Positions 30,797 through 47,474 of a stretch of DNA of 64,000 nt are shown here, piece after piece. The DNA is from Bacillota bacterium (GTDB taxonomy: Bacteria; Bacillota; Desulfotomaculia; Desulfotomaculales; Desulfohalotomaculaceae): NCBI GenBank assembly GCA_009711615.1, contig VENI01000009.1, positions 310,001-374,000 of the forward strand, read 5' to 3'. Both the position numbers and the translations under genes were made by a program. Position 1 is the first letter of the stretch. The number at the start of each line of letters is the position of its first letter. The notes beneath the pieces were generated by a model. It was not told the DNA's origin and searched no databases. It saw only the letters and a list, made by a program, of their open reading frames with translations.

Positions 30797-31164
30797 CAAG
30801 CATCCTCTCCTTTACGATTATAATTGTACTGGTTCACTAGCTATCAAAAATTAGTACTGTAACCCTATTCACCTCCTGCAACAACTCTTGTTACATACAA
30901 TACTAAAATAAATTTTTGACAAACATATGGCTTAACTCCAACTTTTTTGTCAAATTATATCTGGGTTGTTTTATAACTATTTGTTACAGAATTGTCGGAA
31001 CAAAGTCATTAAGTTGTCAAATGTTTTGTTTACTATTAATAAAAGAATGACATGAAATCAAAGTTAAAAAATTTATAAAACTAATAAACTATTATAGGTG
31101 GTGTTTAAAAATTTTTAATAACAGATTCACTCTACTAAAAAATAGCAAAAAGCCAGTGAGCAGA
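30797..31164. other. pspA upstream region
   Basis: About 370 bp without a sure gene. It holds the pspA promoter near 30900. A second AT-rich stretch with TATAAT-like sequence lies near 30955, and a weak start region for the small plus-strand reading frame at 31165. Confidence 0.5.
30900..30953 (-). promoter_or_regulatory. 11-bp phased-repeat promoter, pspA
   Basis: Blocks TTGAC, GTTGG, GCCAT, GTCAA at exact 11-bp steps, then 10 bp, then -10 TAGTAT. It shares the spacing of the other island promoters. Confidence 0.65.
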
Positions 31165-31320
31165 ATGTTAAAGGCTGTTTTGCTAGTACTGTTACTGTAT
31201 TTTTCATTAAAATTTATACTTATTGTTAGTTTCTTTGCGATCAAAATATTATTCTTCATAGCATCTTTAGTTGCCATATATTATTTATTTGTAATGATCA
31301 AAAATATTTTCTTTCGTTAA
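31165..31320 (+). CDS. Possible small membrane protein
   Basis: A plus-strand frame of 51 residues starting MLKAVLLVLLLYFSL, almost entirely hydrophobic with two likely helices and a basic end (MIKNIFFR). It stops directly before a good terminator. The frame stays open further upstream without an ATG/GTG/TTG start and the ATG lacks a strong ribosome site, so this is uncertain. It resembles no family I recognise. Confidence 0.35.
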   Translation: MLKAVLLVLLLYFSLKFILIVSFFAIKILFFIASLVAIYYLFVMIKNIFFR

Positions 31321-31325
31321 AAAAA

Positions 31326-31346
31326 CCCTCCGCTTTTTGCGGAGGG
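31326..31346. terminator. Bidirectional terminator
   Basis: CCCTCCGC-TTTTT-GCGGAGGG, flanked by A-run and T-rich sequence, between the small plus-strand frame and the SHOCT gene. Confidence 0.85.
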
Positions 31347-31381
31347 TTCCTTGTTATTCTTAATCTTGTTATTCTTAATAT

Positions 31382-31627
31382 TTATTTGTTATTATAACCT
31401 TCTAAGTCAACCATACGTTTAATGTACTCATCTTGATCAATTTCTCCTCTAGCATAACGCTTCTTTATTATAGCCATTGGGTCATCTTCATAACTGTTAA
31501 ACGATCTTCCTCCGTTACCTTTTGATAACCTAGAAATCAGAGATATTAATCCAAATATAATAAGTAATGGTAACAACATTGAAAATATACCGGACAACAA
31601 GCCAATTCCACCAAAACCATGCATCAT
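31382..31627 (-). CDS. Small membrane protein with SHOCT domain
   Basis: 81 residues: a Gly/Met-rich start, one membrane helix (IFSMLLPLLIIFGLISLIS) and a C-terminal SHOCT motif (DPMAIIKKRYARGEIDQDEYIKRMVDL). SHOCT is a short oligomerisation motif found at protein ends. It is closely similar to the protein at 45612-45866. It follows the gene at 31658 in an operon. Confidence 0.85.
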   Translation of the reverse strand: MMHGFGGIGLLSGIFSMLLPLLIIFGLISLISRLSKGNGGRSFNSYEDDPMAIIKKRYARGEIDQDEYIKRMVDLEGYNNK

Positions 31628-31657
31628 AAGTATTCCCCCTATACATTTTTGTAACTG

Positions 31658-31987
31658 TTAATCAACTAAAATCAAGAAAATATTTAGTAATGAAAAAATA
31701 ACAGTAAAAGTGACTAACATTATTGCCAAATGAGAAATTATAGCCTTTTTTGTACTTATGTTATGTTTCTTTATACTCCAGAAAAAGGTTCCCATCATGA
31801 ATATCATACCTGCACCTAAAAAATACAACCGATACTCTTCCATGAGTTCTCCAAAAAAAGTTGCCCCCGCACTAAAACCAATAGCAATCGCCACCGCATG
31901 AAGAACACAACATATACCTGCCAGTAAACCTCCGCTGCCTCCTTGGAACCAACTATTCTTTGTGATGTTCTCTTTTATAAACCCCAT
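31658..31987 (-). CDS. Small four-helix membrane protein, MerC/MerT-like
   Basis: 109 residues with about three to four hydrophobic helices. The first carries GICCVLHAVAIAIGFSAG, a vicinal Cys pair in a helix as in mercury/metal transport proteins MerT and MerC. Such Cys pairs bind soft metals; the presence of a CopA ATPase in the island fits, but the match is loose. Ribosome site AAGGAGAGG. Confidence 0.55.
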   Translation of the reverse strand: MGFIKENITKNSWFQGGSGGLLAGICCVLHAVAIAIGFSAGATFFGELMEEYRLYFLGAGMIFMMGTFFWSIKKHNISTKKAIISHLAIMLVTFTVIFSLLNIFLILVD

Positions 31988-32130
31988 TTAGTGCCTCTCC
32001 TTTTGTTTTTTATTAAAGCTAAAATACTTTAAATAAATATTAACAAACAAATATAACGATTCCCGTACAAAGTTATGTAATTTTTGCAATATTTTAAGGT
32101 ATTTTACCCTATGGTTTATATTTACAGAAT

Positions 32131-32184
32131 GTAACAAAAGCTTCACAACTTTGCCTTATTTTCGCAAAATATTATTGATAAAAT
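32131..32184 (+). promoter_or_regulatory. 11-bp phased-repeat promoter, small His-rich peptide gene
   Basis: GTAAC, TTCAC, GCCTT, GCAAA at 11-bp steps, then 10 bp, then -10 TAAAAT; the gene's ribosome site begins about 9 bp further on. Confidence 0.55.
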
Positions 32185-32207
32185 GTTTGAAAAAGGAGGA
32201 GGCAACT

Positions 32208-32366
32208 TTGAAAAAACTTATTATATTTTTAACGATAATGATTACTCTTGCTGTTGTTTTATATTATAGTTTCCTTTCAAATAACCAAAATAACAGCGTT
32301 AGTAAACAGAATAACAACGACTTTGACCCGTCATTTATATTTGATCATGATGCACATCATGATTAA
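32208..32366 (+). CDS. Small membrane-anchored His/Asp-tailed peptide
   Basis: 52 residues from the TTG at 32208, which follows AAAGGAGGAGG. One membrane helix (KLIIFLTIMITLAVVLYYSFL) is followed by an Asn/Ser/Gln-rich spacer and an ending FDHDAHHD, which could bind metal. No family recognised. Confidence 0.6.
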   Translation: MKKLIIFLTIMITLAVVLYYSFLSNNQNNSVSKQNNNDFDPSFIFDHDAHHD

Positions 32367-32420
32367 CTACAATTCTAACTGCTTTAAAAGTTTTTCTGAT
32401 AGAGGAGAAAGGAGACGAAC

Positions 32421-33203
32421 CTATATAGATTCGTCCCCTTTCCCCTCTTTATTTATTTCATTTCGACGCTTGGTATATATATACATGCCAGTTAAAAGTG
32501 TCCCCCATCCAGCAATAACATAAGGGGTATACTTAAGAAAATCATAACTATATTCCGGTAATGGTTTAAATGGAACATCAGTACGGAACCCTAACTGTTC
32601 AAAGGGTATATCAGAGATATACAGCCATCTTGTACCTCCAGCTTCCTTTTCACCGAAAATATGATTAACATATTTATCATCGTTTTCAACCCTGTACTTG
32701 GCTTGCCGCAACATTTCATCATAGTCACCATATGCCAGTGCACCAGTAGGGCAAGCACCAACACATGCAGGTGAATCTCCAGCCTCTACCCTGGTGTTAC
32801 ACATCTGACACTTACTGATTAATGGGAAAGCTTTATCCCATTCATATTTGGGAATATCAAAGGGACAAGCTAACATGCAGTAACGGCAACCAACACAAAG
32901 ATTTTTATAGTAAATAACTGGCCCATCTGGTCTTTTTTGTAACGCCCGAGCAAAGCATGCTGATACACAAGCTGGTTCTTTACAGTGAAAACACTGATTC
33001 TTTACAAAACGCCATACTTTGTCACTACTTTTGTTTACCTCATATAACTTTACTACAGTCCAGTTCACATCTTTTAATATTGCATTTGCTCCGGTAAGAG
33101 GGTTATTTTCTTCAAATTCTAAATCATTCCACAGCTTACATGCTACATTACAACTTCCACAACCAACACATTTGGTTATGTCAACCAAAACTCCCTTGCT
33201 CAA
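32421..33203 (-). CDS. 4Fe-4S ferredoxin-type electron-transfer subunit with C-terminal helix
   Basis: A 260-residue protein with four [4Fe-4S] cysteine motifs (CVGCGSCNVAC, CFHCKEPACVSAC, CVGCRYCMLACP, CQMCN...CVGACP), like the beta subunits of formate dehydrogenase, DMSO reductase and the Hmc complex. A single helix near residue 235 (YVIAGWGTLLTGMYIY) anchors it. No catalytic molybdenum subunit or cytochrome lies beside it, so it is an orphan. Start is TTG with GGAGGTGAG. Confidence 0.88.
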   Translation of the reverse strand: MSKGVLVDITKCVGCGSCNVACKLWNDLEFEENNPLTGANAILKDVNWTVVKLYEVNKSSDKVWRFVKNQCFHCKEPACVSACFARALQKRPDGPVIYYKNLCVGCRYCMLACPFDIPKYEWDKAFPLISKCQMCNTRVEAGDSPACVGACPTGALAYGDYDEMLRQAKYRVENDDKYVNHIFGEKEAGGTRWLYISDIPFEQLGFRTDVPFKPLPEYSYDFLKYTPYVIAGWGTLLTGMYIYTKRRNEINKEGKGDESI

Positions 33204-33245
33204 TCATCTCACCTCCACGATTTATGGATTTCATACCCTAAAAAA

Positions 33246-33299
33246 ATTATAACTGATATAAGTGACAGCACTGTGAACAAATTCTGACATTTTTGTAAC
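33246..33299 (-). promoter_or_regulatory. 11-bp phased-repeat promoter, ferredoxin gene
   Basis: GTTAC, GTCAG, TTCAC, GTCAC at 11-bp steps, then 10 bp, then TATAAT. Confidence 0.65.
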
Positions 33300-33356
33300 T
33301 AATATAAAAGACAGTTTTCTAGTCATACATACTAAGTTTCTCTTAAGAAATAAAAA

Positions 33357-33389
33357 AGTTAAGGACCGTTTAAACACTGGCCCTTAACT
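33357..33389 (-). terminator. Terminator of the Met/Gln-rich protein gene
   Basis: AGTTAAGG and CCTTAACT stem, followed on the minus strand by TTTTTTATTT. Confidence 0.8.
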
Positions 33390-33402
33390 CTAAATAAAAT
33401 AT

Positions 33403-33969
33403 TTATCTTCCCATCATACTACTGCCATTCATTTGATTACCATTCATTGCACCGTTATTATGCATTTGCTGATAAGGCATATTTGGATTATTCATATTGG
33501 TGTTTATTTGTTGTTTTGTTATGTTCTTGTGTACTTCATTCATAGTTTCAACCATCTGCTCCTGGTTCGTTTGATGAATTTCATTCATTTGCTCTTGATA
33601 GTTTGTAGCATTACCATTTGTCATGTACTGGGGATCCATAGTGTATTGCTGCTGACCAGTATTTTGGGTGTTGTCTTTATCTTGAGTATTTTCTTCATCA
33701 TTTGAACTATCATTAGATTTATCAGCATCACTGTCATCTGTTTGATCTGAGGAAGCTTCATTAATTGTTACTGCACCGTCACCCATTACTTCATTCATGT
33801 TTTCATTCATAGCATCAACATTCTCTTCCGTCATTTGAGTTTGCTGTTGAGCCTGATCTTGAGATATGCTATTCATTGCTGAGCTAATAGTGTCTGCATT
33901 TGCAATGCTTACTAAGGAAACACCTAATGCAATTGTAGTTATTGTGAGAGCGATACGATTCTTTGTCAT
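33403..33969 (-). CDS. Secreted Met/Gln/Asn-rich low-complexity protein
   Basis: 188 residues: a signal peptide (to about ANADT), an acidic Ser/Asp/Asn middle, and a C-terminal third rich in Met, Asn, Gln and His (NNPNMPYQQMHNNGAMNG, then SSMMGR). No domain recognised. Methionine-rich exported proteins often bind Cu(I), and a copper ATPase lies close, but this is inference. Confidence 0.7.
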   Translation of the reverse strand: MTKNRIALTITTIALGVSLVSIANADTISSAMNSISQDQAQQQTQMTEENVDAMNENMNEVMGDGAVTINEASSDQTDDSDADKSNDSSNDEENTQDKDNTQNTGQQQYTMDPQYMTNGNATNYQEQMNEIHQTNQEQMVETMNEVHKNITKQQINTNMNNPNMPYQQMHNNGAMNGNQMNGSSMMGR

Positions 33970-34150
33970 AAATTAATTCCTCCTTAAAATTATGTTTTAC
34001 TAAATTATTAACTTAAAAAAGCACTTAATTATAATTAACTGTTTGTCCCCCCTTTTTTGCTGTTCACTAATTCCTTCGAAGTATTAAACAATATTTAAGG
34101 GGATAAATAGATTATTTCTAAAAGAAATTATTATTACACCATATAAAATA

Positions 34151-34181
34151 TCTAATCCTCCGGTATAACCGGAGGATTAGA
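34151..34181 (-). terminator. Terminator of the copA-methyltransferase unit
   Basis: TCTAATCCTCCGGT and its exact complement around three bases, then TATTTTATAT on the minus strand. Confidence 0.85.
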
Positions 34182-34189
34182 TTAATGTT

Positions 34190-34822
34190 TTAGTGACATT
34201 TCTGTTCTTTGAAACCTTCTGGTTCAGCAATAATTAGTTTTAAAATCTTTGTCTTTCCAACATCAGCTACCTCTTTTAGACTAATTCCTGCTTTGTTTAC
34301 ATTTCCTACTGTTTCACGGTTTATATTTGATCCTACCATTTTAAGTGTTATGGGATTTAAAAAATCCATTACCTTCCCTATGGCGGGATTGGCGCTTCGC
34401 ACATGTTCCAGCAGAATTATCTGTCCGTTTGGTTTACATACTCGTTTTACTTCTTCCAACCCTTTAACTGGGTCCGGCACAGAACAAAATACACAAGTGG
34501 AAACAACTGTATCAAAAGTATTGTCATCAAAGTCCATTTTTTGAGCATCCATCTCTAATAATTCTACGCTAAGGTTAAGTTTTTTTGCCTTATCCCTGGC
34601 ACGTTTTAGCATTTCTTTGCTAAAGTCTATCCCTGTAATTTTACAACGAGAAGGATACAACGACAAGTTTTTACCCGTTCCTACTCCCACTTCCAATACC
34701 TTTCCCTTTGCCATACTCAAAGCATCTTTTCTTACTGAATCACTAATCATAAAGTCCATCCAGTCATAAAACATGGCAGTACGATTATACCTGCGTTTTA
34801 TCACCTCGGTAATATTATCCAT
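34190..34822 (-). CDS. Class I SAM-dependent methyltransferase (UbiE/PhoMT-like)
   Basis: A 210-residue methyltransferase: motif I VLEVGVGTGKNL, motif post-I ITGIDFSKEM, motif II FDTVVSTCVFCSVPDP and LLEHVRSANP. The LLEHVRS motif occurs in UbiE-like and phospholipid methyltransferases. It starts 15 bp after the copA stop, so it is co-transcribed with the copper pump. Why is unknown. Confidence 0.87.
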   Translation of the reverse strand: MDNITEVIKRRYNRTAMFYDWMDFMISDSVRKDALSMAKGKVLEVGVGTGKNLSLYPSRCKITGIDFSKEMLKRARDKAKKLNLSVELLEMDAQKMDFDDNTFDTVVSTCVFCSVPDPVKGLEEVKRVCKPNGQIILLEHVRSANPAIGKVMDFLNPITLKMVGSNINRETVGNVNKAGISLKEVADVGKTKILKLIIAEPEGFKEQKCH

Positions 34823-34837
34823 ATCATCACTCCATAT

Positions 34838-37306
34838 TTATTCTGGACGACGGGCAGGTTCAGGTTTCATGCGCATTGAGTTTTTTTCTTCGCCCTTAAA
34901 GTAACGGTACGGGTCAAATCTCTTTAACCTTAGTGCATTTGTTACTACCGATACCGAACTAAAGGCCATAGCAGCTCCTGCCAAGATAGGTGATAAGAAA
35001 CCTAGAGCTGCCACCGGAATACCTAATGAATTGTATATGAAAGCCCAAAACAAGTTCTGTTTAATATTTTTCATGGTATCCCGACTCAATGTAATGCTTG
35101 CCGGTACCCCTCGTAGATCACCCTTCATTAATGTTATATCCCCTGCTTCCATAGCAACATCAGTACCCGTACCTATGGCGAATCCCACATCGGCACTGGC
35201 CAGTGCTGGGGCGTCATTAATACCGTCACCCACCATGCCAACTACTTTACCCTCTTCTTTTAACTTATTAACTTCCCGGGCCTTGTCCTGAGGTAGCACC
35301 TCTGCCAATACATTCTCCGGAGGTATTCCCACCTGACGGGCAATTGCTTCGGCGGTTCGCTGGTTATCACCGGTGATCATGATTGTATCAATATCCATAT
35401 CTTGCAGCGCTTTTATTGCCTGGGCTGATGTATGTTTCACCGTATCAGCCACAGCAACCACACCTGCAGGCTTATTATCTACAACCACCATCATGGCTGT
35501 TTTGCCTTCATTCTCCAGCTTATGAACTTGTTTTTCTAAGTCACTAATATCTATATTATTATTAGACAACAACCTGCGGTTGCCAATTAACAAATTCCTA
35601 TTATTAACCTTTGCCTTTATTCCGTGACCAGGGATTGCTTCAAACTCTCGGGGATCAACAAGCTTAATACCTTTCTCCTTAGCACCATCGACAATAGCCT
35701 CCCCAAGGGGGTGCTCTGAACCTTTTTCAGCTGAGGCCACCATTTGTAACAATTCGTCTTCATTGATATCATCACCAAGCAATATTACATCGGTTAGAGA
35801 AGGCTCCCCTCGAGTAATGGTTCCTGTTTTATCCATAATCATGGCATTTATCTTATGGGTCTTTTCCAGGTGCTCTCCACCCTTAATTAATATCCCGTTT
35901 TCCGCTCCTTTGCCAGTACCCACCATAATTGAAGTAGGGGTGGCTAACCCAAGTGCACAAGGACAGGCAATAACCAATACAGCGGTAAAGTTAATTAACG
36001 CCCGTGCTAAATCTCCCGGGTCAGCAAAGAAGTACCAACCTAAAAAGGTTATAGTAGCAATTCCCACCACGGCAGGCACAAAATAAGCAGCAATAACATC
36101 GGCCATTCGTTGTATCGGTGCCTTAGAACCTTGAGCTTCTTCTACAATTTTTATTATCTGTGCTAACGCAGTATCGGAACCTACCTTAGTAGCTTCAAAT
36201 TTAAAGCTACCATGTTTATTAATGGTTCCCCCTATCACTTCGTCCCCTTCACCCTTATCTACAGGCACACTTTCCCCGGTAAGCATTGACTCATCTAAAG
36301 TAGAATGACCATCTTTAATTTGGCCGTCAACCGGTACCTTTTCACCAGGGCGAACCAGTACTAAGTCACCTTGCTGTACTTCTTCCACCGGAATGTCGAC
36401 TTCCTGACCATCTCGGATAACCCTTGCCTTCTTTGCCTGCAAATCCATTAATTTTTTAATTGCTTCGGAAGTACGTCCTTTAGCCACTGATTCTAACATC
36501 CGTCCAAGAATTATCAGGGTGATAATAATTGTAGCAGTTTCATAATAAACATGTCCTTGATAAAAGAATGTTGCCCCAACACTGTAAAAATATGCAGCAG
36601 ATGTACCCAGAGCAATAAGCACATCCATATTTGCACTACCATTTTTTAGTGACTTAAAAGCTCCCCTATAAAACTGGTAACCGGCAATAAACTGTACCGG
36701 AGTGGCCATAGCAAACTGAAATAGCTTATTATCCATTATTGAAGGGAGGGGAATGTTAAATAACTCAGCAAACATGATAGTTAGTAGGGGTAGAGAAAGT
36801 ACCCCGGAGAGTATTAATAGGTTTACTTGCCGTTTAGTCTCTCGCTGGCGTTCTAATTTTTCCTTATCCTCATCAAATTTCTTCTCTGCATCTTCTGCTT
36901 GGTAACCTGCATCAGATACTGTCTTTTTAAGATCAGCAATGCTGATTAGAGATGGCTCAAATTCCACTGTAGCTTTTTCCATGGCGAAGTTTACATTCGA
37001 CCTAAATACCCCGTCTAAATGACCGAGTTTCTTCTCTATCTTTGCAGCACAAGATGCACAACTCATGCCACTTATTTTCAAGTCCACACGTTCAGTAGGT
37101 ACACGGTAACCCAAATCTGTTATGGTTTCCACCAATTTGTCTACACCAGTACTTTGAGGATTAAATTCTATTGTTGTTTTTTCCGCTGCAAAGTTCACCG
37201 CAGCATTATTTACTCCATCCACTTTATTTAGCTTTCGTTCAATTCTTGCAGCACAGGCAGCACAATCCATACCTGCTACTTTTAATGTAACTTTTTGCTT
37301 ATTCAA
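34838..37306 (-). CDS. copA: Cu(I)-exporting P1B-type ATPase CopA
   Basis: An 822-residue P-type ATPase. Two N-terminal heavy-metal domains ([12 protein letters not shown] and [12 protein letters not shown]), transmembrane CPC motif ([13 protein letters not shown]), phosphorylation motif [11 protein letters not shown] motif SEHPLGEA and hinge [11 protein letters not shown]. It exports Cu(I) at the cost of ATP. Start is TTG with GGAGGTG. It has an unusually long leader (about 320 nt) from an 11-bp phased-repeat promoter. Confidence 0.96.
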
Positions 37307-37706
37307 AAAAACACCTCCTGTATAGCTCTGATTTATTATTTCCCTTAAACAGGCTTAATTAATTATTTAAAGATAGATTATTGGTATAACAAAATGGCCT
37401 CCAACATTATTAGAGGCCACTGGCAGAAAGCAGAATTTTTAAATTTTGCCTGGCTATTTAATTTTAAGTACTAATTATAGGTGAAGTAGTATCACCTTCC
37501 TTCTTAGATATTTACTATCAAAGGATAAATTACTTTAATACATCACCAGTGGATTACTTTCAAAATATTGCTATGGAGTTATTTTTGTTCTATAATCCTC
37601 CCTCCTAAAATTTTTGTAGTTCCATTTACTTAATATTATTATAAAATACAGGTTTTACAATTTTAGGGCATCACAGGTACATTTTTGTCACATTTCTCCT
37701 TTGCTA
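37307..37706 (-). other. Long copA leader region
   Basis: About 400 bp with no gene of note. Transcription from the promoter at 37638-37692 would read a stranded GGAGGGAGG ribosome-like site with no start codon at a useful distance, a small AGGTGA/TCACCT hairpin near 37480, and a hairpin GGCCTC/GAGGCC (about 37395-37417) followed by ATTTTGTT, which could terminate or attenuate. No known riboswitch was recognised. Confidence 0.5.
37638..37692 (-). promoter_or_regulatory. 11-bp phased-repeat promoter, copA
   Basis: GTGAC, GTACC, GCCCT, GTAAA at 11-bp steps, then 10 bp, then TATAAT. It lies right after the lgt stop. Confidence 0.7.
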
Positions 37707-38534
37707 TTAACCTTGAACACCGTAGAATATTATTAAGGAAAACAATATCAAAATAATAACAAAAAGAAGAGTTCCCCATATATTAGTACGTTTTCTTCCA
37801 ATATCAGTTTTTAAGGGTTTGTTCCTTTTTAAATAGATAGCAATAATTGTGCCTGCTGCAACCATCACTATACTTAAAACATGGGATACAGTAAACACTC
37901 CCCACACCGAAGGATTAATCCTGCTGAATTCCACAACTCCCCGGATTAAAGCAAATATCATCAAGTAATGCACAAAGATTTGCCCATCATACTTAAGGTC
38001 TTTACGTTTTTGCCACAAATAAGAGAATAACAGGTAATCTAAAATAAACTCATAAGCTTGGGCAGGGTGTACTAAATTACCATTATAAGTTATTCCCCAC
38101 GGTAAAGGGGATGACATTACTTTACCAAATACATCACAACCAACACGACCAATTCCCTGCGCTAATATCAAACCGGGGGCAACGGTGTCTGCCACCTTCC
38201 ATATAGGTAGTTTGTTTTTCTTAATATAAATAATTGCCGCTAGGGCGCCTCCAACTATCCCTCCGTGAATGGAAAGACCTCCATTTGATATCATGATTAT
38301 ATCCGCTGGGTTTTGCAGATAGTGAGCAGGGTCATATACTAGAATATACATTAACCGTGCGCCAACTACCCCACCCACCAGTGCATACAAACACACTTCT
38401 AAAATTCTTTCTTGATCAAGACCTTTTCTCTTGGCCTCCATTAAGGCCACACCTATTCCTACCATACTGGCTATTGCCACCATCAAACCAAAAAAATGTA
38501 TATTAAATGGGCCTAGACTAAATATAAGCTTCAT
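37707..38534 (-). CDS. lgt: Prolipoprotein diacylglyceryl transferase Lgt
   Basis: A 275-residue membrane enzyme with the Lgt signatures FGLMVAIASMVGIG, GGLSIHGGIVGG and GRVGCDVFGKVMSSPLPWGI. It transfers diacylglycerol to the lipobox Cys of prelipoproteins. An essential lipoprotein pathway gene sitting in this island is notable, though it may be a second copy. Confidence 0.95.
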   Translation of the reverse strand: MKLIFSLGPFNIHFFGLMVAIASMVGIGVALMEAKRKGLDQERILEVCLYALVGGVVGARLMYILVYDPAHYLQNPADIIMISNGGLSIHGGIVGGALAAIIYIKKNKLPIWKVADTVAPGLILAQGIGRVGCDVFGKVMSSPLPWGITYNGNLVHPAQAYEFILDYLLFSYLWQKRKDLKYDGQIFVHYLMIFALIRGVVEFSRINPSVWGVFTVSHVLSIVMVAAGTIIAIYLKRNKPLKTDIGRKRTNIWGTLLFVIILILFSLIIFYGVQG

Positions 38535-38603: not shown

Positions 38604-38783
38604 TTAATGGCAGCAGTCTTTATCACCTGTCTTTTCCTTACTATTTTCCCTTTCATCTACCTTAACTGCGTGGGGCTTATTATGTTTACCATGACTGCCA
38701 CCGCAGCAGCCTCCCCTGCGCATCATAAACATCATCATGCCGAAAAATAATATCAGTGGTAAAGCATTTAAAATATTATCCAC
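38604..38783 (-). CDS. Small Cys/His-rich membrane peptide
   Basis: A 59-residue gene from a GTG start with AGGAGG 7 nt upstream. One hydrophobic, Met-rich helix (LPLILFFGMMMFMM) is followed by RRGGCCGGSHGKHNKPH and a final DCCH. The two vicinal Cys pairs and the His residues suggest binding of a soft metal such as Cu or Zn. Upstream of lgt, separated by a hairpin. No family recognised. Confidence 0.75.
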   Translation of the reverse strand: MDNILNALPLILFFGMMMFMMRRGGCCGGSHGKHNKPHAVKVDERENSKEKTGDKDCCH

Positions 38784-38822
38784 TTATAGTCCTCCCTATA
38801 AAATAATTATTTAGTATATATA

Positions 38823-38875
38823 TAATAACTAGATATTTTGATAAAACTATGTCCTTTCTATGAACATTTTGTCAA
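38823..38875 (-). promoter_or_regulatory. Weaker 11-bp phased-repeat promoter, Cys/His peptide gene
   Basis: TTGAC, TTCAT, GACAT, ATCAA near 11-bp steps, then -10 TTATTA. Blocks fit less well than at the other sites. Confidence 0.4.
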
Positions 38876-41110
38876 TATACTTTTTTCGCCTGGAGTAAAT
38901 AATACCAATGTTAGAATATATGCTGTGGCCCCCAACAGAAGCGACCAATTAAAGCCTAGTACCATAGCTATTAACATTGCTAATATAGAGCCCACAACAG
39001 ACATCCATCCGTTAACACCCCACATTAGAGGTACGTAATCTCCATGGGAATCTCGGGCTAATAGGCTTAAGCCCGCAGGAAATGGAATGCCCATTACCAA
39101 CCCTAAAGGACCCAACGTTGTAATTGTAACTATTACTTTTACTAGCAAGGTACTGTCCTGCCATGTAGAAAATATCGTTGGTAAGAATAATGTAATTAAA
39201 AATGTATACACCGCAATAAAAATGACTGTATATTTAATTTGTATTTTCAAGGGAAGTGATTTTCCTAATAAACTTCCAATACCTCCAAACAATAGCAGTA
39301 CTGCAATTACCACTGCAAATGCAATGGTTGGGTGTCCAAATAAAAGCATGAATTTTTGGACTAAAGGCACTTCTATTAGCATAAAACCGGCTCCAAGGAG
39401 CATAAAGAACTGACTATAATTTGAAACTGATGAGTTTTTATTTGTAATAACAGAGAAATAGCGCCGCCCCTTCATATACACCACCATTAGAACTCCTAGA
39501 AGCAAAACTGCTATTCCACTGCCATGATTATAAAAGAACGGGCTGTCATCAGTGGCAGGTTTTACTGATAGGTGTAGGGTGTCATTACTGCTCAAACCCA
39601 AGATGTTTTTCTCTACTAACCCCGGAATAAATAGTGGTTCTTGATCTAAGAAACCTGTCATCTCTAATAGACTTTTACTTTCCTTTAAAGTAAACGGGCC
39701 GTTCTTAACAACTAGCACCGGATACATAATCCCATCTGAGTCATTATCACCTTTAACAATAACTGCCAAACTGTTAATTGCATCATTTGTGCTTACGCCT
39801 TTTTGATTTAGAGCTTTAACAGCAGTGGCTATTGCTTTCTTGATGTCGTTTTCCCCATGTAAAACTAACGCTAACTTTCCATTTGGTTTAAGCCTATCTA
39901 AATAGGTATTAAATGCCTCCAGGGTATAAATGTAGTTCTCTGATAGGGCATATCCCATTGCTTCTGATGCTTGGGTCATTACTTTTGATAAATAAATTAC
40001 ATTATACTTTTTGTCTGTAAGTTCAGCAAAGGTTCTTCCATCTTTAATATATGTGTTCACACCGGGCAAGTGGTAAGGGTTCCCGCTGTATTCTGCAAAA
40101 TACTCCGTTGCCATAACAGAACCGGCATTAATTTCTACCGCATCAACATTTTTAATTCCCGCTAATTTTGCTAACCATATATCCAGGCCTCCCCCTGGGC
40201 CAATTATAAGGGCATCATCTTTGTCCTCATCCATCAAGAAAGGTATATAGCCTGGTTCCTCGGTAAGATATTTCATATCATCCAAACTGCCTTTGTAGCG
40301 TACCATTGAAGATGTAGCACTTCCATCAATCATTACATACACCTTATCTGTTTCACCTACATCCACAACATCGGTTCTAGAAAAAGAATTCCAGTTAGTA
40401 AATAAAATATCGGTTTTATCATACATACCAAGAACTTTTGCATCCCCATCATATGCTTTAAAATCAGTTGACCATTTATCAATATTGGACCCACCAATTA
40501 GTATTGCTGATGATAAAACTAACCAGATGCTAATTAGTATAGCGTTCGTAACTTTTTCTTTCTTCCTTTCAGTGATAGCTATTATTAAGAAGGCCAAAAA
40601 GGGGGCCAAAGCGAGCATAAATGAAACTCTTAATATACTGTAATGATTAAGCAGATTAATTACAGCTACACTTCCGATAGCCGAACCCACTAAGTCCCCA
40701 AAGTATAGAAAATGGCTCCATCCAGAAAAGTTTTTAAATGCAGATGAAATAAATATACCTGCAGCAATGAACGGCACTGCAACCAGGGCAAGATAAGGAA
40801 GAAACAATAGTAAGTTAAATGGTATTTTATATATCGCCAGCGTATTAAGAGGAATGCTTACAGCCATAACTAGGCTTGACTGTTTCATTAGTTTTAAATA
40901 TAGTGTACTCTTATCTTTTAATAGGGATTCTTTTGCCTGCTTGTAAACATAAATCCCACCGAGACCAATGCAAAATATGGCCAGTGAAATTGCTATAAAA
41001 ACAAAATGATACCACACTATGGCAGAAAACAATCTGGTTACGAGGATTTCAAATGTAAAAAGTGTATATGTTATTAATGCAAGGGCAAATAATATTACCG
41101 CCTTAGGCAT
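38858..41110 (-). CDS. Membrane protein with spermidine-synthase-like domain
   Basis: A 750-residue protein with N-terminal membrane helices (residues 1-210), a central SpeE-like Rossmann domain (DDALIIGPGGGLDIWLAKLAG, VDAVEINAGS) and C-terminal helices (from about 540). Such membrane-fused aminopropyltransferase-like proteins are common in bacteria, with unknown substrates. The DGSATSSM segment and VDVGETDKVYVMIDG strand belong to the domain's start. Confidence 0.82.
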   Translation of the reverse strand: MPKAVILFALALITYTLFTFEILVTRLFSAIVWYHFVFIAISLAIFCIGLGGIYVYKQAKESLLKDKSTLYLKLMKQSSLVMAVSIPLNTLAIYKIPFNLLLFLPYLALVAVPFIAAGIFISSAFKNFSGWSHFLYFGDLVGSAIGSVAVINLLNHYSILRVSFMLALAPFLAFLIIAITERKKEKVTNAILISIWLVLSSAILIGGSNIDKWSTDFKAYDGDAKVLGMYDKTDILFTNWNSFSRTDVVDVGETDKVYVMIDGSATSSMVRYKGSLDDMKYLTEEPGYIPFLMDEDKDDALIIGPGGGLDIWLAKLAGIKNVDAVEINAGSVMATEYFAEYSGNPYHLPGVNTYIKDGRTFAELTDKKYNVIYLSKVMTQASEAMGYALSENYIYTLEAFNTYLDRLKPNGKLALVLHGENDIKKAIATAVKALNQKGVSTNDAINSLAVIVKGDNDSDGIMYPVLVVKNGPFTLKESKSLLEMTGFLDQEPLFIPGLVEKNILGLSSNDTLHLSVKPATDDSPFFYNHGSGIAVLLLGVLMVVYMKGRRYFSVITNKNSSVSNYSQFFMLLGAGFMLIEVPLVQKFMLLFGHPTIAFAVVIAVLLLFGGIGSLLGKSLPLKIQIKYTVIFIAVYTFLITLFLPTIFSTWQDSTLLVKVIVTITTLGPLGLVMGIPFPAGLSLLARDSHGDYVPLMWGVNGWMSVVGSILAMLIAMVLGFNWSLLLGATAYILTLVLFTPGEKSILTKCS

Positions 41111-41158: not shown

Positions 41159-41212
41159 ATTCTATCAATAACTTTTTGCAATAATAGGTCAAAAGTGTGT
41201 AAATTTTGTTTC
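41159..41212 (-). promoter_or_regulatory. Weaker 11-bp phased-repeat promoter, SpeE-like membrane gene
   Basis: AAACA, TACAC, GACCT, GCAAA at 11-bp steps, then TAGAAT at the usual distance. Confidence 0.4.
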
Positions 41213-41248: not shown

Positions 41249-41271
41249 AACATGGACTTTTAATCCATGTT
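41249..41271 (-). terminator. Terminator of the PspA-like gene
   Basis: AACATGGA / TCCATGTT stem followed on the minus strand by TTTCTTTTT. Confidence 0.75.
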
Positions 41272-41321
41272 AAAAAGATAATGTATATTTATAGTGGAGG
41301 TGATTGAAGGCGTATTGTAAA

Positions 41322-41963: not shown

Positions 41964-41990
41964 GAACACTCCCCCCATTATCGGAGTATT

Positions 41991-42014
41991 AAGTGACCCC
42001 TTAAGGGGTCACTT
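41991..42014 (-). terminator. Perfect palindrome AAGTGACCCCTT/AAGGGGTCACTT
   Basis: A 24-bp palindrome immediately after the Gly/Tyr/Met-rich protein gene. No strong U-run follows, so it may be partial termination or message processing ahead of the PspA-like gene. Confidence 0.6.
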
Positions 42015-42029
42015 GCGGGAGCTTAATCA

Positions 42030-42527
42030 TTATCGCTGTGGGTATCCACCCATGCCATATCCCATTCCGTAACCCATTCCGTAACCGCCGCCCATCATAC
42101 CATATCCATAGTTAGAATTAGTATTTCCACTTTCATTACCATATTGGCCATATCCATATGGACCATATCCACCCATCATCATGCCCATCATTCCAAAGCC
42201 AGCTTGGTTATGAAAGTCTCTCATATAATCAAAGTGACCTCTCCAAGCATCAGCCGCTTGAGGGTTAATTTGGTTGTAATCTTCTGCTTGGTCAACCCAT
42301 GAATCATGCCAATTAAACATTTGGTCAAACCATTGATTCTGTTGTTCTAACAACTCTTGTGAATAGGGATAGTTCGGATAGTTTGGGTAATTTCTGTATA
42401 CTTCATCGGTTACAGATTCCTCAATAGTTGCCGAGCCTGTGTCAGTATCTGCTGCAAAAGCACTGGGTACAACTATTGCCACCAGTAATATACTTGCTAA
42501 ACCTAAAATTGTAAGTTTCTTTTTCAT
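42030..42527 (-). CDS. Secreted Gly/Tyr/Met-rich protein
   Basis: 165 residues: signal peptide ending near FAADT, an EESVTDEVYRNYPNYP segment, an aromatic middle, and a tail of GYGM-type repeats (GMGYGMGYGMGGYPQR). The EES-V-x-DEVY motif also occurs near the mature start of the SLH protein at 27776-29851. No domain recognised. Two tandem phased-repeat promoters precede it. Confidence 0.72.
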   Translation of the reverse strand: MKKKLTILGLASILLVAIVVPSAFAADTDTGSATIEESVTDEVYRNYPNYPNYPYSQELLEQQNQWFDQMFNWHDSWVDQAEDYNQINPQAADAWRGHFDYMRDFHNQAGFGMMGMMMGGYGPYGYGQYGNESGNTNSNYGYGMMGGGYGMGYGMGYGMGGYPQR

Positions 42528-42564
42528 AAGTATTAGCCTCCTAACTCATTTTCTTTTAATAGTA

Positions 42565-42619
42565 ATTATACAAAGTAAGTTTTACAAACATAGGGCATTT
42601 TTAACACGTTTTTGTCACA
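42565..42619 (-). promoter_or_regulatory. 11-bp phased-repeat promoter, proximal copy
   Basis: GTGAC, GTGTT, GCCCT, GTAAA at 11-bp steps, 10 bp, then TATAAT. Confidence 0.72.
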
Positions 42620-42684
42620 AGTACTTATAAAGGTTTTTCATTGGCATCACCCTCCTGAAACGTTTTCTTATCTTAATCAATTTC

Positions 42685-42739
42685 ATTATAGAGGGGAACT
42701 TTTACAAACATAGGGCATATTTGGTACTATTTTGTCATA
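42685..42739 (-). promoter_or_regulatory. 11-bp phased-repeat promoter, distal copy
   Basis: ATGAC, GTACC, GCCCT, GTAAA at 11-bp steps, 10 bp, then TATAAT. The stretch TATGCCCTATGTTTGTAAAA nearly repeats the proximal copy. Confidence 0.7.
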
Positions 42740-42789
42740 ATTATTATTGACGATTAGGATAGCAGTTAAATGACCAGTTTTGATACAAC

Positions 42790-42811
42790 GGCTCGGTGGG
42801 GGCACCGAGCC
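42790..42811 (-). terminator. GC-rich hairpin after the 42903 gene
   Basis: GGCTCGGTG / CACCGAGCC around four G. U-run is weak on the minus strand. Confidence 0.5.
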
Positions 42812-42902
42812 CTACACAAATTGTAGGTTCTATTTAACTCCTTACTACTGACTTCTGAATTCTGCATTAATATTGGCATTCATAAAAAAATCCCCCCCTG
42901 AT

Positions 42903-43160
42903 TCACTCAAGAGGGTATGATTGAACATAACTACGTTTTATACGTCTGTATTCTTTTATGGATATTTCTCCGTATGCAAGTTTCATATTTAAATTTTGTT
43001 TTTGGTCAGTGATGTTGTTCAAGGCTTCGTTTTTTTCTTTATATTTATCAAATAGATAAAAAGTCATCCATACTAATATAATCAACGGAAGGGCCATCAA
43101 AATAATCATCATTAGGCTCATTAAAAAGCCATTAATTCCGTATCCATGATGAAAAAACAT
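42903..43160 (-). CDS. Small membrane protein with SHOCT-like tail
   Basis: 85 residues from the ATG at 43160: HHGYG start, one long helix (SLMMIILMALPLIILVWMTFYLF), charged linker, and an end with SHOCT-like pattern (NMKLAYGEISIKEYRRIKRSY). Directly downstream of the histidine kinase gene, with its own phased-repeat promoter overlapping the kinase stop. Confidence 0.72.
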   Translation of the reverse strand: MFFHHGYGINGFLMSLMMIILMALPLIILVWMTFYLFDKYKEKNEALNNITDQKQNLNMKLAYGEISIKEYRRIKRSYVQSYPLE

Positions 43161-43198
43161 TGTTATAACACACCTCACTTCTGATAGGAATATTAATT

Positions 43199-43252
43199 AT
43201 TATATAAAGATACTTTGACGACCCCGTTACTAAATTACGAACTTTTTGTCAT
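43199..43252 (-). promoter_or_regulatory. 11-bp phased-repeat promoter, 42903 gene
   Basis: ATGAC, TTCGT, GTAAC, GTCAA at 11-bp steps, 10 bp, then TATAAT. Confidence 0.65.
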
Positions 43253-44707
43253 ATTCTGTTCAGTTATGGGAAGTACAATAGTGAATGTAGTCCCCTTATT
43301 CACCTCACTGACAACGTCAATACAGCCTCCATGGGCTTCAACTATCTTTTTAACAATGGCCAGACCCAGGCCAGTACCACTTTTATCCCTGTTTCTTGAT
43401 TTATCTGCCTTATAAAATCTCTCCCAAATCATTGGCAGGTCTTCCTTAGGAATACCTTTACCACTATCTTTTACTTCTATCCTTACATTACTGGCTGTTG
43501 AGGTTACAGTTATTGAAACTTCTCCTCCCTTTGGAGTATGACGAACTGCATTATCAATTAAGTTAATGAATACCTGTTCAATTCTATCCCTATTGCAATA
43601 AACATTGGGTATTCTTCTATCCAGTTTAAATAGTAGCCGAACACCAGATTCTTCTTGTAATGCATTAAATTTTTCCTGTATTTTATTAATTAATGACTTT
43701 AAATTAATAAAGTCTTTTTCAAAATCATCGCGACCTTCTTCCATTTTCTTTAGATTTAGAACATCATTCACTAAACGTTTAAGTCGCTGAACCTCATCCT
43801 CGATGTTATTCAAGTACTCTTTACGTTCTTTATCTGTAGTTACAAAATCATCTTGTAATACCTCAGTAAATGCCTGAATAATGGTCAAAGGTGTTTTAAT
43901 TTCATGGGATACGTTAGACACAAATTCCCGGCGAGTTTCATCAATTCGTTTCAACTGGGTTAATTTTTCCTGTAAACGGGTAGACAATGTGTTTAATGAA
44001 TTAGCTAATAAGCCAACTTCATCCTTTGTACTCACCTCTATACGTCGGGTAAAATCGCCACTGGCCATGGCCAGTGAAACCTTGCTCATATCTAATAGTG
44101 GCCGTGAAACCATTCTAGAAAAAAACAAACTGAGCAGGGTAGCTAAAAATATACCGCCCACAGCAGTATATATAGTAATTAACTTAAAAACAGCTAATTG
44201 TCCAGCCAGAGGTTTTAGTGGTGAGTGAATAATTACCGCCCCGGCAGAACTATTAGCATCATTAATTGGTATGCCTATAGATAGGACATCTGTTTTAAAA
44301 AAGTCATTTCTACCACGATGTGTGATAATCTCTCCGTTAAACAATTTATCAAGATCAAATTCTGTCAACGGGCCATGATGTGGATTATTTATATCCATTA
44401 CCTGCTCCTCAGTACTGACTCCTAATCCACGGCAGGCTTGTACAGTTCTGTTCTTATCAAGAATCATTACATTACCATCAATCATGCTAGCACTTACTGA
44501 TACTTTTGTGTCTAACATATCCTCATTACTATCACTATTTGCGAAACTAGCAACTTTTTTCCCTACATCTACTAGATGATTTACCTGTTGCTTGTAATAT
44601 ATATTCTCTAACAAACTAGTTTGAGCTGCACCTGCTACTCCGATAACAAGCAACATGATAACAGTAATTGCAGCCCATAGTTTTGTTACAATACTATTCC
44701 ACTTCAT
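43235..44707 (-). CDS. Membrane sensor histidine kinase
   Basis: A 490-residue kinase with two membrane helices (about 10-30 and 165-190) around an extracellular cache/PAS-like sensor, a HAMP domain (MVSRPLLDMSKVSLAMASGDFTRRIEV), the phosphoacceptor His in SNVSHEIKTPLT, and ATPase boxes NLIDNAVRHTP, DSGKGIPKED and GTGLGLAIVKKI. It resembles PhoR/WalK-type kinases. Start overlaps the regulator stop (TAATG), so the pair is translationally coupled. Confidence 0.94.
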   Translation of the reverse strand: MKWNSIVTKLWAAITVIMLLVIGVAGAAQTSLLENIYYKQQVNHLVDVGKKVASFANSDSNEDMLDTKVSVSASMIDGNVMILDKNRTVQACRGLGVSTEEQVMDINNPHHGPLTEFDLDKLFNGEIITHRGRNDFFKTDVLSIGIPINDANSSAGAVIIHSPLKPLAGQLAVFKLITIYTAVGGIFLATLLSLFFSRMVSRPLLDMSKVSLAMASGDFTRRIEVSTKDEVGLLANSLNTLSTRLQEKLTQLKRIDETRREFVSNVSHEIKTPLTIIQAFTEVLQDDFVTTDKERKEYLNNIEDEVQRLKRLVNDVLNLKKMEEGRDDFEKDFINLKSLINKIQEKFNALQEESGVRLLFKLDRRIPNVYCNRDRIEQVFINLIDNAVRHTPKGGEVSITVTSTASNVRIEVKDSGKGIPKEDLPMIWERFYKADKSRNRDKSGTGLGLAIVKKIVEAHGGCIDVVSEVNKGTTFTIVLPITEQNMTKSS

Positions 44708-45390
44708 TATTTCACCTCAAATTTATAACCAACTCCCCAAACGGTATTAATGTATGAAGGTGCATTTGGGATTTTTAATTTTTCCCTTAATCTCTTAATA
44801 TGAGTATCTACAGTTCTTAGGTCACCATAATAGTCAATACCCCATACATTCTCCAATAGTTGTTCCCGGGTGAATGCTCGTCCAGGTTGTTTGGCCATTA
44901 ATACCAATAGTTCGAACTCTTTAGGTGTAAGATATATTTCTTGTTCAAGAATACTTACTTCTCTTGTTACCATATTAATAGTTATTCCAGGATAGTTGAT
45001 AGTAGTTTGTTCTGCTTTATCAGCCTGTCCAGAACGCCGCAAAACAGCCTTTACCCTGGCAGTAAATTCCCTGGGACTAAAAGGTTTGCCAATATAATCA
45101 TCTGCTCCCATTTCAAGACCCAATACTCTATCTATTTCATCATTACGAGCAGTTAGCATAATTATAGGTACTTGAGATTTCTTTCTTATTTCCTGGCATA
45201 CTTGTATACCGTCCATTTCTGGCATCATAACATCAAGTATAACCATATCCATTTTTTCTCGATTGTATAATTCAATTGCTTCTTTGCCATCTGCCGCTGC
45301 AACAACATCATACCCTTCTTTTTTAAGGTACATTAATACTACCTGACGAATTTTTTGCTCATCATCTGCAAAAAGAATTTTTTCTGCCAT
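44707..45390 (-). CDS. OmpR-family response regulator (PhoB/WalR-like)
   Basis: A 227-residue regulator: receiver domain with FADDEQKIRQVV, phosphoacceptor Asp in LVILDVMMPEMDG and Lys in YIGKPFSPRE, then a winged-helix DNA-binding domain (PKEFELLVLMAKQPGRAF, VDTHIKRLREKL). I took the ATG at 45390 over an upstream start. OmpR-type regulators bind direct repeats at 11-bp steps, exactly what many promoters around it show. Confidence 0.95.
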   Translation of the reverse strand: MAEKILFADDEQKIRQVVLMYLKKEGYDVVAAADGKEAIELYNREKMDMVILDVMMPEMDGIQVCQEIRKKSQVPIIMLTARNDEIDRVLGLEMGADDYIGKPFSPREFTARVKAVLRRSGQADKAEQTTINYPGITINMVTREVSILEQEIYLTPKEFELLVLMAKQPGRAFTREQLLENVWGIDYYGDLRTVDTHIKRLREKLKIPNAPSYINTVWGVGYKFEVK

Positions 45391-45433
45391 ATATATCACA
45401 CTCCAATACATTTTATTTCTTATTCTACTAAAG

Positions 45434-45480
45434 ATAATATCATATAAACGTGACAAAAGTTTAACAATTTCAAAAGCATT
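45434..45480 (-). promoter_or_regulatory. Partial 11-bp phased-repeat promoter, response regulator
   Basis: GTTAA and GTCAC blocks at an 11-bp step, then 10 bp, then TATTAT; the outer two blocks are not convincing. Suggests autoregulation. Confidence 0.45.
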
Positions 45481-45525
45481 ATTTGTAATTTATGCACAAA
45501 TACATTAAATTCAACAACCCTTTTT

Positions 45526-45579
45526 GTTACAAAATAGTTAAAAATTCGTCATGTTTTTGTCAATTTCATTGGCTATAAT
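45526..45579 (+). promoter_or_regulatory. 11-bp phased-repeat promoter, SHOCT gene
   Basis: GTTAC, GTTAA, GTCAT, GTCAA at exact 11-bp steps, 10 bp, then TATAAT: the best example in the window. The regulator promoter diverges from the same intergenic region. Confidence 0.8.
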
Positions 45580-45611
45580 AAATTTGAATTAAAAAGGAGG
45601 TTTATAACCTA

Positions 45612-45866
45612 ATGATGGGATATGGTTTTGGAGGTTTCGGAGGAATTTTCTCTATGTTCCTTTCCATGCTAATTCCAGTTCTAATACTGGTTGGTGCAAT
45701 ATATTTAGCATTAAAACTATGGGAGGGCGGCAGTAAAAAAGGGTTAAAAAAGCAAAATGCCCAATTCAACCCCGACCCAATTGATATTCTTAAACAGCGT
45801 TATGCACGAGGCGAGATTACCAAGGACGAGTACCATGAGTTAAAAGCAGAGCTCAATAACGATTAA
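45612..45866 (+). CDS. Small membrane protein with SHOCT domain
   Basis: 84 residues: MMGYGFGGFGG start, one helix (MFLSMLIPVLILVGAIYLAL), then DPIDILKQRYARGEITKDEYHELKAEL, a clear SHOCT motif. It is close in layout to the proteins at 31382 and 42903. Ribosome site AAAAGGAGG. Confidence 0.87.
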   Translation: MMGYGFGGFGGIFSMFLSMLIPVLILVGAIYLALKLWEGGSKKGLKKQNAQFNPDPIDILKQRYARGEITKDEYHELKAELNND

Positions 45867-45901
45867 GCTATAATCAAACCTTGAGATTGGGGGTGAAGTA
45901 T

Positions 45902-45976
45902 ATGTTACGGAAGCACTATATGCTAAGGCCAGTTGCCCATTGTAAGGATGGTTGCAGTATTAGGTCCTGGGTATGA
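45902..45976 (+). CDS. Possible 24-residue peptide
   Basis: ATG after GGGGGTGAAGTAT encodes MLRKHYMLRPVAHCKDGCSI and four more residues. Good ribosome site, but too short to support by composition. Followed by a terminator (46012-46045). Confidence 0.25.
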   Translation: MLRKHYMLRPVAHCKDGCSIRSWV

Positions 45977-46011
45977 CATAAAACTACCCCCTTTAATCCC
46001 CAAACAATGTA

Positions 46012-46045
46012 GCAACCCCAGAAATTTTCTTGGGGTTGCACTTTT
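46012..46045 (+). terminator. Terminator after the SHOCT gene
   Basis: GCAACCCCA / TGGGGTTGC stem then ACTTTTTATG. Confidence 0.85.
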
Positions 46046-46083
46046 TATGACCTATTAGAACCAGGGAGGCTAACAATGGAAAG

Positions 46084-47406
46084 ATGAAAGAATTTATTCT
46101 AAAACATAAAATTAAATTATCTATCCTTGCATTCGTTGCAATATTTTTATCTACCAGCATGGTATTAAGTAAGTCCCAATCATATTATGCAGTTTATGCT
46201 GACGGTAAGGAAGTTGGGGTCGTCCAACACCCTCGTATAGCCCAACAAGCACTACAATCACTAATAAAATCTAAGGAAGAAGATTTTAAACAAAAAGTTA
46301 TCATCAATACAACCTTAGATTTTAAAAAAGTATCTAATACAAATAATACTCTTAACGTTAATGAAATGGCGGAAAAACTATCCTCAAAAGTTAACTATAG
46401 TATTAAAGCAATTGCCATTAATATTGACAACGATAAAAAGATAATTCTTAAGGATAGATCCAGTGCTAATCAATTAATTAAAAAAGTAAAAAACCACTAT
46501 CAATCAAAGGACAATGCCAGTGTTAAAGTAGTTGAGGATGTTGAATTAAAAGAGATTACCATTGCACCTAATGAAATTCTACCGGTAGACAAAGCATTTA
46601 ACCTAGCAGTAAAAGGTATAAACTTTAAAAAATATACAGTAAAAGAAGGAGATACCTTATGGGATTTGGCCATTGAAAATAATATATCAGTAGATTATAT
46701 TACACAGGCCAACCCCGAAATATATGAAAATCTGCAAATTGGTACAGAAATTAATATTCCTGGCCAGCCACTCCTCAACGTTTTAACCACTTACACAGAA
46801 GAAGTTATCGAAGGAATACCCTATAAGGTTATAGTAAAGAAGAATTCAAGTTTAGCATCTGGGAAAAGTAAAATTATTAAGCGTGGGCAAAGCGGAAAGA
46901 AAAAAGTTAAATACAAAATAGTACATAAAAACGGTATAGAAATTTCTCGCATTGCAAAAACAGAGAAGATAGAAGCAACGGCTGTGAACCAGGTCGTAGA
47001 AAAAGGTACAAGAACCGCACTGGTGGCCAGTCGTGGTGGTAATAGCATCTTCTTGAAACCTACAGACGGTTATGTTTCATCAAAATATGGACAGCGCTGG
47101 GGAACAACGCATGAAGGAATTGACATTGCAAACACTTATGGTGCACCAGTTGTAGCAGCAGATAGTGGTAAGGTAATTAGAGTTGGTTGGATTAATGGTT
47201 ATGGTAATACCATAGATATTCAACACGATAATGGACTGGTAACAAGATATGCTCACTTATCTAAATATTTGGTAAGTACCAACACAAACGTTAAAAGAGG
47301 ACAAGAAATCGGTAAGGTTGGAACATCAGGAAGAACCACCGGTCCTAACTTACATTTTGAAGTAATAAAATCAGGGACTTCACTAAACCCTCTTAATTAC
47401 TTGTAG
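46084..47406 (+). CDS. M23 peptidoglycan endopeptidase with LysM and G5 domains
   Basis: A 440-residue exported wall hydrolase. Signal/anchor helix (residues 10-30), an N-terminal helical region, LysM (KKYTVKEGDTLWDLAIENN, near residue 180), G5-like domain (TYTEEVIEGIPYKVIVKKNSS), and M23 peptidase (HEGIDIANTYGAPVVAADSG, YAHLSKYL, GPNLHFEV) with the zinc ligands. It cuts peptide cross-links of peptidoglycan. No strong GGAGG site directly at the ATG; GGGAGG lies about 20 bp upstream. Confidence 0.93.
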   Translation: MKEFILKHKIKLSILAFVAIFLSTSMVLSKSQSYYAVYADGKEVGVVQHPRIAQQALQSLIKSKEEDFKQKVIINTTLDFKKVSNTNNTLNVNEMAEKLSSKVNYSIKAIAINIDNDKKIILKDRSSANQLIKKVKNHYQSKDNASVKVVEDVELKEITIAPNEILPVDKAFNLAVKGINFKKYTVKEGDTLWDLAIENNISVDYITQANPEIYENLQIGTEINIPGQPLLNVLTTYTEEVIEGIPYKVIVKKNSSLASGKSKIIKRGQSGKKKVKYKIVHKNGIEISRIAKTEKIEATAVNQVVEKGTRTALVASRGGNSIFLKPTDGYVSSKYGQRWGTTHEGIDIANTYGAPVVAADSGKVIRVGWINGYGNTIDIQHDNGLVTRYAHLSKYLVSTNTNVKRGQEIGKVGTSGRTTGPNLHFEVIKSGTSLNPLNYL

Positions 47407-47420
47407 AAAATACCAAGCAA

Positions 47421-47474
47421 GTGACAAAATCGTCAAGGTTAAGTCATTAATATGTCAATATTTTTTTTTACAAT
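47421..47474 (+). promoter_or_regulatory. 11-bp phased-repeat promoter upstream of sigI
   Basis: GTGAC, GTCAA, GTCAT, GTCAA at exact 11-bp steps, 10 bp, then TACAAT. A terminator hairpin lies about 45 bp downstream, before sigI. Confidence 0.75.

Follow-up and report, generated by a model that had tools for sequence, protein, structure and literature searches.

The 64-kb window analysed here, to which all positions without a prefix refer, comes from a 3.17-Mb genome of the order Desulfotomaculales and encodes a two-component pair on its minus strand at 43235–45390. The response regulator (44707..45390), the proposed activator of the promoters described below, belongs to the OmpR/PhoB family and consists of a receiver domain (PF00072, 115 bits) and a winged helix (PF00486, Trans_reg_C, 102.6 bits), both scoring above cut-off. 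Its partner histidine kinase (43235..44707) has two membrane helices with an extracytoplasmic domain between them, and HAMP, HisKA and HATPase domains. Between 30.9 and 47.5 kb there is a series of promoters in which four GTnAC-type boxes stand at exact 11-bp steps, with 10 bp from the end of box 4 to the −10 element and with no −35 element. The original prediction had named twelve such places, giving those on the minus strand by their low end, which is the −10 end; aligned in orientation, they read box1–6–box2–6–box3–6–box4–10–TATAAT on the transcribed strand.

Two arrays illustrate the layout. The array that starts at 42618 on the minus strand reads GTGAC aaaaac GTGTT aaaaat GCCCT atgttt GTAAA acttactttg TATAAT, and that at 45526 on the plus strand reads GTTAC aaaata GTTAA aaattc GTCAT gttttt GTCAA tttcattggc TATAAT. 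The consensus from 65 sites located outside the window is tRTnACAAAAtGTnA-acttttGtnACagtttTGTaAAactt----TATAAT. Its information lies in the G, T and A of every box and in the run of four A residues after box 1.

Most of the genes in the cluster encode small proteins of envelope or metal type. At the left end, the promoter at 30900..30953 (−; TTGAC/GTTGG/GCCAT/GTCAA, −10 TAGTAT) points towards a PspA-family gene (30104–30796). A divergent array at 30983..31036 (+), absent from the original prediction, faces a putative 54-amino-acid hydrophobic open reading frame (ORF) at 31156, the start of which is unsure. The array at 32131..32184 (+) points towards a small ORF that starts near 32208 and encodes an N-terminal membrane helix and a C-terminal DHDAHHD; a peptide resembling it (..VDHAAHHQ) stands behind an array in Desulforamulus. 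The next promoter, 33246..33299 (−), lies 42 bp before a gene for an HmcB/DmsB-like Fe-S protein (32421–33203). Between the PspA and Fe-S genes, and without an array of its own, is a gene for a MerT-like membrane protein (31658–31987, −) that scores below the family cut-off.

Further along the minus strand, the array at 37638..37691 points towards copA (34838–37306). This target is uncertain, because copA starts ∼330 nt away and a terminator-like hairpin intervenes. The array at 38822..38875 precedes the gene for a 59-amino-acid Met/Cys/His-rich membrane peptide (38604–38783), followed by lgt (37707–38534), and that at 41159..41212 precedes the gene for a 750-amino-acid membrane protein with a spermidine-synthase-like domain (38858–41110). 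A gene for a 165-amino-acid secreted Met/Gly-rich helical-hairpin protein (42030..42527, −) has a proximal array at 42565..42618 (GTGAC/GTGTT/GCCCT/GTAAA, TATAAT) and a second, tandem array at 42685..42738, apparently a duplication. The start region of the gene appears to have been duplicated in tandem along with the promoter (42565–42738), and the upstream copy at 42685–42738 drives only an 8-codon ORF, the end of which falls in box 1 of the next array. The array at 43199..43252 (−) stands before the gene for an 85–91-amino-acid membrane peptide (42903–43178), homologues of which adjoin arrays in Desulforamulus.

On the plus strand beyond the regulator gene, the array at 45526..45579 (GTTAC/GTTAA/GTCAT/GTCAA, TATAAT) lies 32 bp before a gene for a SHOCT-domain membrane peptide (45612..45866). 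The gene that follows, for an M23 peptidase with LysM and G5 domains (46084..47406), lacks its own array and may be co-transcribed. The last array, 47421..47474 (GTGAC/GTCAA/GTCAT/GTCAA, TACAAT), precedes sigI and an rsgI-type anti-sigma gene (47649..49496). Before sigI is reached, this array is followed by a strong terminator-like hairpin and T run at 47518–47538, which may attenuate or terminate transcription.

The regularity of the arrays was assessed in several ways. An initial search for an exact triple repeat of GTCA gave a single match and was too strict. An unbiased scan of both window strands for four blocks at 0/11/22/33 with TAnnnT at +48 recovered mostly this promoter set among its best-scoring positions, with 13 of the top 14 falling within 30.9–47.5 kb. 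In a leave-one-out position weight matrix control, which drew on a further 194 kb of this genome (386,176 positions), 12 of 13 sites were equalled or beaten by just 0–7 control positions, and these are taken to be real sites outside the window that lie within the control stretches. Scores included 41.8 at 30900..30953, 33.9 for the additional array at 30983+ and 27.6 at 41159, the weakest site accepted. Eleven of the twelve promoters originally proposed were thus upheld and one further site was added. The exception is 45434..45487 (−), the proposed promoter of the regulator gene itself, where boxes 3 and 4 alone fit. Its leave-one-out score is 7.7 and its blocks-only score 0.7, and 636 control positions score as well; it is best removed from the set or, at most, regarded as a two-box site.

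Poor blocks at sites such as 45434, in an AT-rich genome, are what would be expected if frequent GTnAC and −10 sequences in upstream regions had merely mimicked regularity. The leave-one-out scores, the spacing peaks at 11, 22 and 33 bp found in genes selected by protein alone and the conservation across families of the order, both described below, refute chance alignment, to which we attach a negligible probability. A search for sigma-70 consensus promoters was uninformative (83 found, 74.5 expected in shuffles). Among 78 sites, partly selected for having a −10, TTGACA matches at 16–18 bp were rarer than in shuffles, with two or fewer of the six bases matched in 66 sites where ∼37 were expected. 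The array therefore takes the place of the −35.

We then searched the whole genome with R1, a sequence-only profile built from 13 window sites, whose E-values are rough owing to a short calibration. Twelve of the training sites were recovered at E ≤ 5e-8. The original prediction would have been contradicted by an equal density of hits throughout the genome; instead, the window holds 13 of ∼20 hits at E ≤ 1e-4, although these window hits are themselves the training sites of the profile, and the unbiased test is the leave-one-out matrix.

Outside the training set, R1 matches fell in a second cluster, beside two kinase/regulator paralogues and at two isolated places. The second cluster, at C3:177.5–199.8 kb, contains six hits. 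Four of them each precede, by ∼30 bp, the gene for a different paralogue of the 165-amino-acid secreted protein; these four Met/Gly-rich paralogues, every one with an array to itself, are spread over 20 kb (L036 ∼9200–9500, L036:14514–14834, L037:625–939 and L037:8780–9091, within C3:177–197 kb). The remaining two hits represent one bidirectional array in which three boxes are held in common, because GTnAC is its own reverse complement. At C4:257853 a strong hit stands before a degenerate copy of the Fe-S gene 32421–33203 (L038:8850–9250), so the promoter probably travelled with the gene. The hit at C16:27.5 kb stands before another homologue of the secreted protein. Paralogues of the kinase/regulator pair adjoin weaker hits at C5:38.7 kb (E = 0.003) and at C2:83.8 kb (E = 0.8), the latter pair with its own sigI-rsgI downstream.

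Two arrays are trailed by terminator-like hairpins within ∼30–45 nt of the −10, the one already described at 47518–47538 (+) and another at L037 ∼12130–12185 (−). A short RNA or attenuation might therefore be involved at these places.

In 40 relatives, 85 matches to R1 were obtained at E ≤ 0.1; 33 of these were no more than 10 kb from a full-length homologue of the window kinase, compared with 0.6 expected. As a control, kinases with an R1 hit no farther than 10 kb away were counted: 16 of 37 in this family, but only 1 of 84 others. Across the order, 24 of 113 genomes had hits at E ≤ 0.001, and two of them (G072 and G073) contained multi-site clusters. Outside the order the hit rate was lower; three of the six strongest places examined there were 33–44 bp upstream of small secreted proteins of the same kind as the window target. 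At orthologous loci the array stands upstream of genes for SHOCT peptides, secreted Met/Gly-rich proteins, homologues of the membrane peptide at 43 kb, sigI, a ZIP-like transporter region and His/Met-rich peptides.

A test independent of the motif was made with 28 homologues of the 165-amino-acid secreted protein, gathered by protein profile alone. An array was present 23–56 bp upstream in ∼19 of them. In several of those that failed this test the array was shifted upstream by a further ∼100–200 bp and preceded a conserved micropeptide ORF. In the same 28 genes, pairs of GT.A[ACT] were spaced predominantly by 11 bp (19), 22 bp (14) and 33 bp (8), with ∼2 at other spacings. No other target family follows the array as consistently as that of this secreted protein. 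Its weaker homologues match DUF2680; assignment to Spy/CpxP was rejected, as the protein had no Pfam hit and no match in the PDB at E ≤ 0.001.

Of the proposed targets, copA and sigI are the weakest. The gene sigI stands behind a hairpin in the window and carries an array in two other genomes (G028 and G033), in an uncultured Desulfotomaculum and in Desulfosporosinus.

The conserved micropeptide is represented in the window by MLRKHYMLRPVAHCKDGCSIRSWV, encoded at 45902..45976 (+) between the SHOCT and M23 genes. The peptides, ∼18–26 amino acids long (further examples are L201–L230), follow the pattern M[LF]xK[RHQ][WY]ML[RP]xVAHCKxGC(xxxSRA); their genes differ by synonymous changes, and a stop codon closely follows the motif. 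Matches to AHCKxGC occurred in 51 of 113 genomes of the order, the reversed control gave none, and no match was found in NCBIfam. The ORF is within the regulon in the window and in L210, L215, L221, L225 and L226, and outside it in other genomes.

Which regulator binds the boxes is suggested by their company. Regulators linked to arrays have RTVDTH[IV][NK]RLR in the recognition helix (RTVDTHIKRLR in the window regulator). This sequence is absent from seven further OmpR-type regulators encoded in the genome, which have VDVHIR, VDIHIT and similar sequences instead. We nevertheless considered that another OmpR-type regulator, global and WalR-, ResD- or PhoB-like, binds the boxes and that the local pair is a mere neighbour or target. 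Recognition helices are alike across the family, the genome encodes ten such regulators, and four of the ten outscore the window regulator against the YycF model; WalR boxes are likewise 11-bp direct repeats, and lytE of Bacillus subtilis is a joint target of WalR and SigI. However, none of the genome's regulators reaches the YycF cut-off, the others differ in the recognition helix, and no strong R1 hit lies near regulators outside the window regulator's clade, both paralogues of which have an adjacent array. The clustering of hits beside the window kinase family, and not beside the 84 other kinases, points the same way. We therefore regard control by another regulator as unlikely. A search of plasmids with the window regulator returned distant OmpR-type proteins only.

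The linkage, the recurrence of targets and the recognition helix thus agree with the original proposal that head-to-tail OmpR/PhoB-type boxes replace the −35 and are tied to the regulator of the cluster. Judging from sequence, we consider it very likely that the local pair at 43235–45390 activates an envelope/metal-type regulon through these four boxes. The kinase would sense an extracytoplasmic signal, perhaps envelope or metal stress, and phosphorylate the regulator, protomers of which would line up head to tail, as two dimers, on the four 5-bp boxes, which at 11-bp steps share one face of the helix. The bound protomers would then recruit RNA polymerase to promoters that lack a −35, switching on gene by gene the small secreted and membrane peptides (of DUF2680/SHOCT type), the PspA-family protein, the Fe-S protein and probably SigI-RsgI.

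A more specific proposal would make the kinase a sensor of copper or some other soft metal, and the regulon a copper response. In close orthologues of the kinase a loop of the extracytoplasmic domain contains Cys, Met and His residues (..CQGMGMSTKNMPMDMNNPHHG..), which is suggestive of a metal. Several targets are rich in Met and His, copA and the MerT-like gene lie within the cluster, and in G033 a DUF326 Cys-rich protein of the copper-storage type is encoded behind an array. Yet copA is the least certain target, and the Cys and Met of the loop vary: Ser occurs in L004, and the window kinase has Leu and Val where others have Met. Moreover, PspA, SigI and the SHOCT peptides point to envelope stress. 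A copper response is possible but rather doubtful, and copper as the inducing signal is a guess.

Several observations weigh against activation by the local pair as we propose it. The regulator's own promoter lacks a four-box array, and in some genomes, for example G001, G009 and G018, the kinase is present without an R1 hit. The clade that contains all 16 array-linked regulators has moderate support (94/91), with an open fork, and the two close paralogues of the window regulator, among the ten full-length OmpR-type regulators of the genome, may share its sites. The genes and promoters at C3 and C4:257853 were probably duplicated together, and these hits are therefore not fully independent. 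The approximate E-values of R1 and the partial selection of the 78 sites for a −10 also count on this side.

We conclude that the two-component regulon is real, conserved and clustered, with a binding mode of a known kind. The Desulfotomaculales are metal- and sulfate-cycling spore-formers whose regulation is little known. No published description of the regulon was found in the open-access literature, which was searched for SHOCT, PspA and SigI regulons, copper two-component systems of Desulfotomaculum and DUF2680; to this extent the suggestion that it matches no described regulon holds, and regulon and regulator clade appear undescribed. On balance, we somewhat favour the view that this is an undescribed stress regulon, widespread in the Desulfotomaculales and reaching other Bacillota, which combines a dedicated kinase/regulator clade and four GTnAC boxes with individually promoted genes (DUF2680-like secreted hairpins, SHOCT peptides and SigI-RsgI) and, in some genomes, a new family of ∼24-amino-acid AHCKxGC peptides. 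With its four boxes at 11-bp steps and 10 bp to the −10, the operator is defined precisely enough to be tested, and it comes with a named regulator clade and a list of targets recurring across the order. Regulation is thereby assigned to poorly characterized families such as the DUF2680-like proteins and SHOCT peptides, and prediction of the regulon from sequence becomes possible in many genomes. The arrays also form an extended natural series for examining how four regulator protomers replace a −35.

Among known systems, ResD resembles the window regulator in its recognition helix, and its TTGTGAA site contains GTGAA. ResE is longer than the window kinase and has a PAS domain, and the targets of the window system are not respiration genes as in ResDE/SrrAB. 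In B. subtilis PhoP and Escherichia coli PhoB, tandem 11-bp boxes stand in place of the −35, with about four TTAACA-like repeats at PhoP-activated promoters. The window regulator scores below the PhoB model (TIGR02154; 244.2 against 296.2 bits), and no pst or pho genes were recognized among the genes examined behind arrays. CpxAR and BaeSR resemble the window system in outline, as envelope-stress pairs that turn on a small secreted helical protein; here too the regulator falls below the cut-offs (CpxR, 179 of 341 bits; BaeR, 223 of 380 bits). The heavy-metal systems CopRS, CzcRS and SilRS were likewise rejected (TIGR01387, 183 against 279; TIGR01386, 196 against 292.6). The window kinase, too, scores under the curated cut-offs for PhoBR, CpxAR, BaeSR and these heavy-metal systems.

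WalRK (YycFG) provides the best curated model for both window proteins, yet each remains below cut-off (kinase, 309.7 against 725 bits; regulator, 257.5 against 340). The window system differs from it in a kinase without a PAS domain, in its four boxes and in its targets. The regulation of lytE in B. subtilis nevertheless provides an example of an OmpR-type regulator and SigI/RsgI acting jointly on cell-wall genes (PMC7299342).

In box sequence and geometry the arrays agree with the sites of GlnR, also of the OmpR/PhoB family. At amtB and glnA of Streptomyces venezuelae, GlnR sites read GTnAC-n6-GTnAC-n6-GTnAC-n6-GTnAC (PMC3087709), that is, two tandem pairs of GTnAC-n6, and the GlnR–RNA polymerase activation complex contains four DNA-binding domains, head to tail (PMC10704036). 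As this four-box layout is known from Streptomyces, the mechanism that we propose is not new. GlnR, however, controls nitrogen genes in Actinomycetota as an orphan regulator, whereas the system described here, in Bacillota, has an adjacent kinase, targets unrelated to nitrogen and a −10 at a fixed distance of 10 bp from the array.

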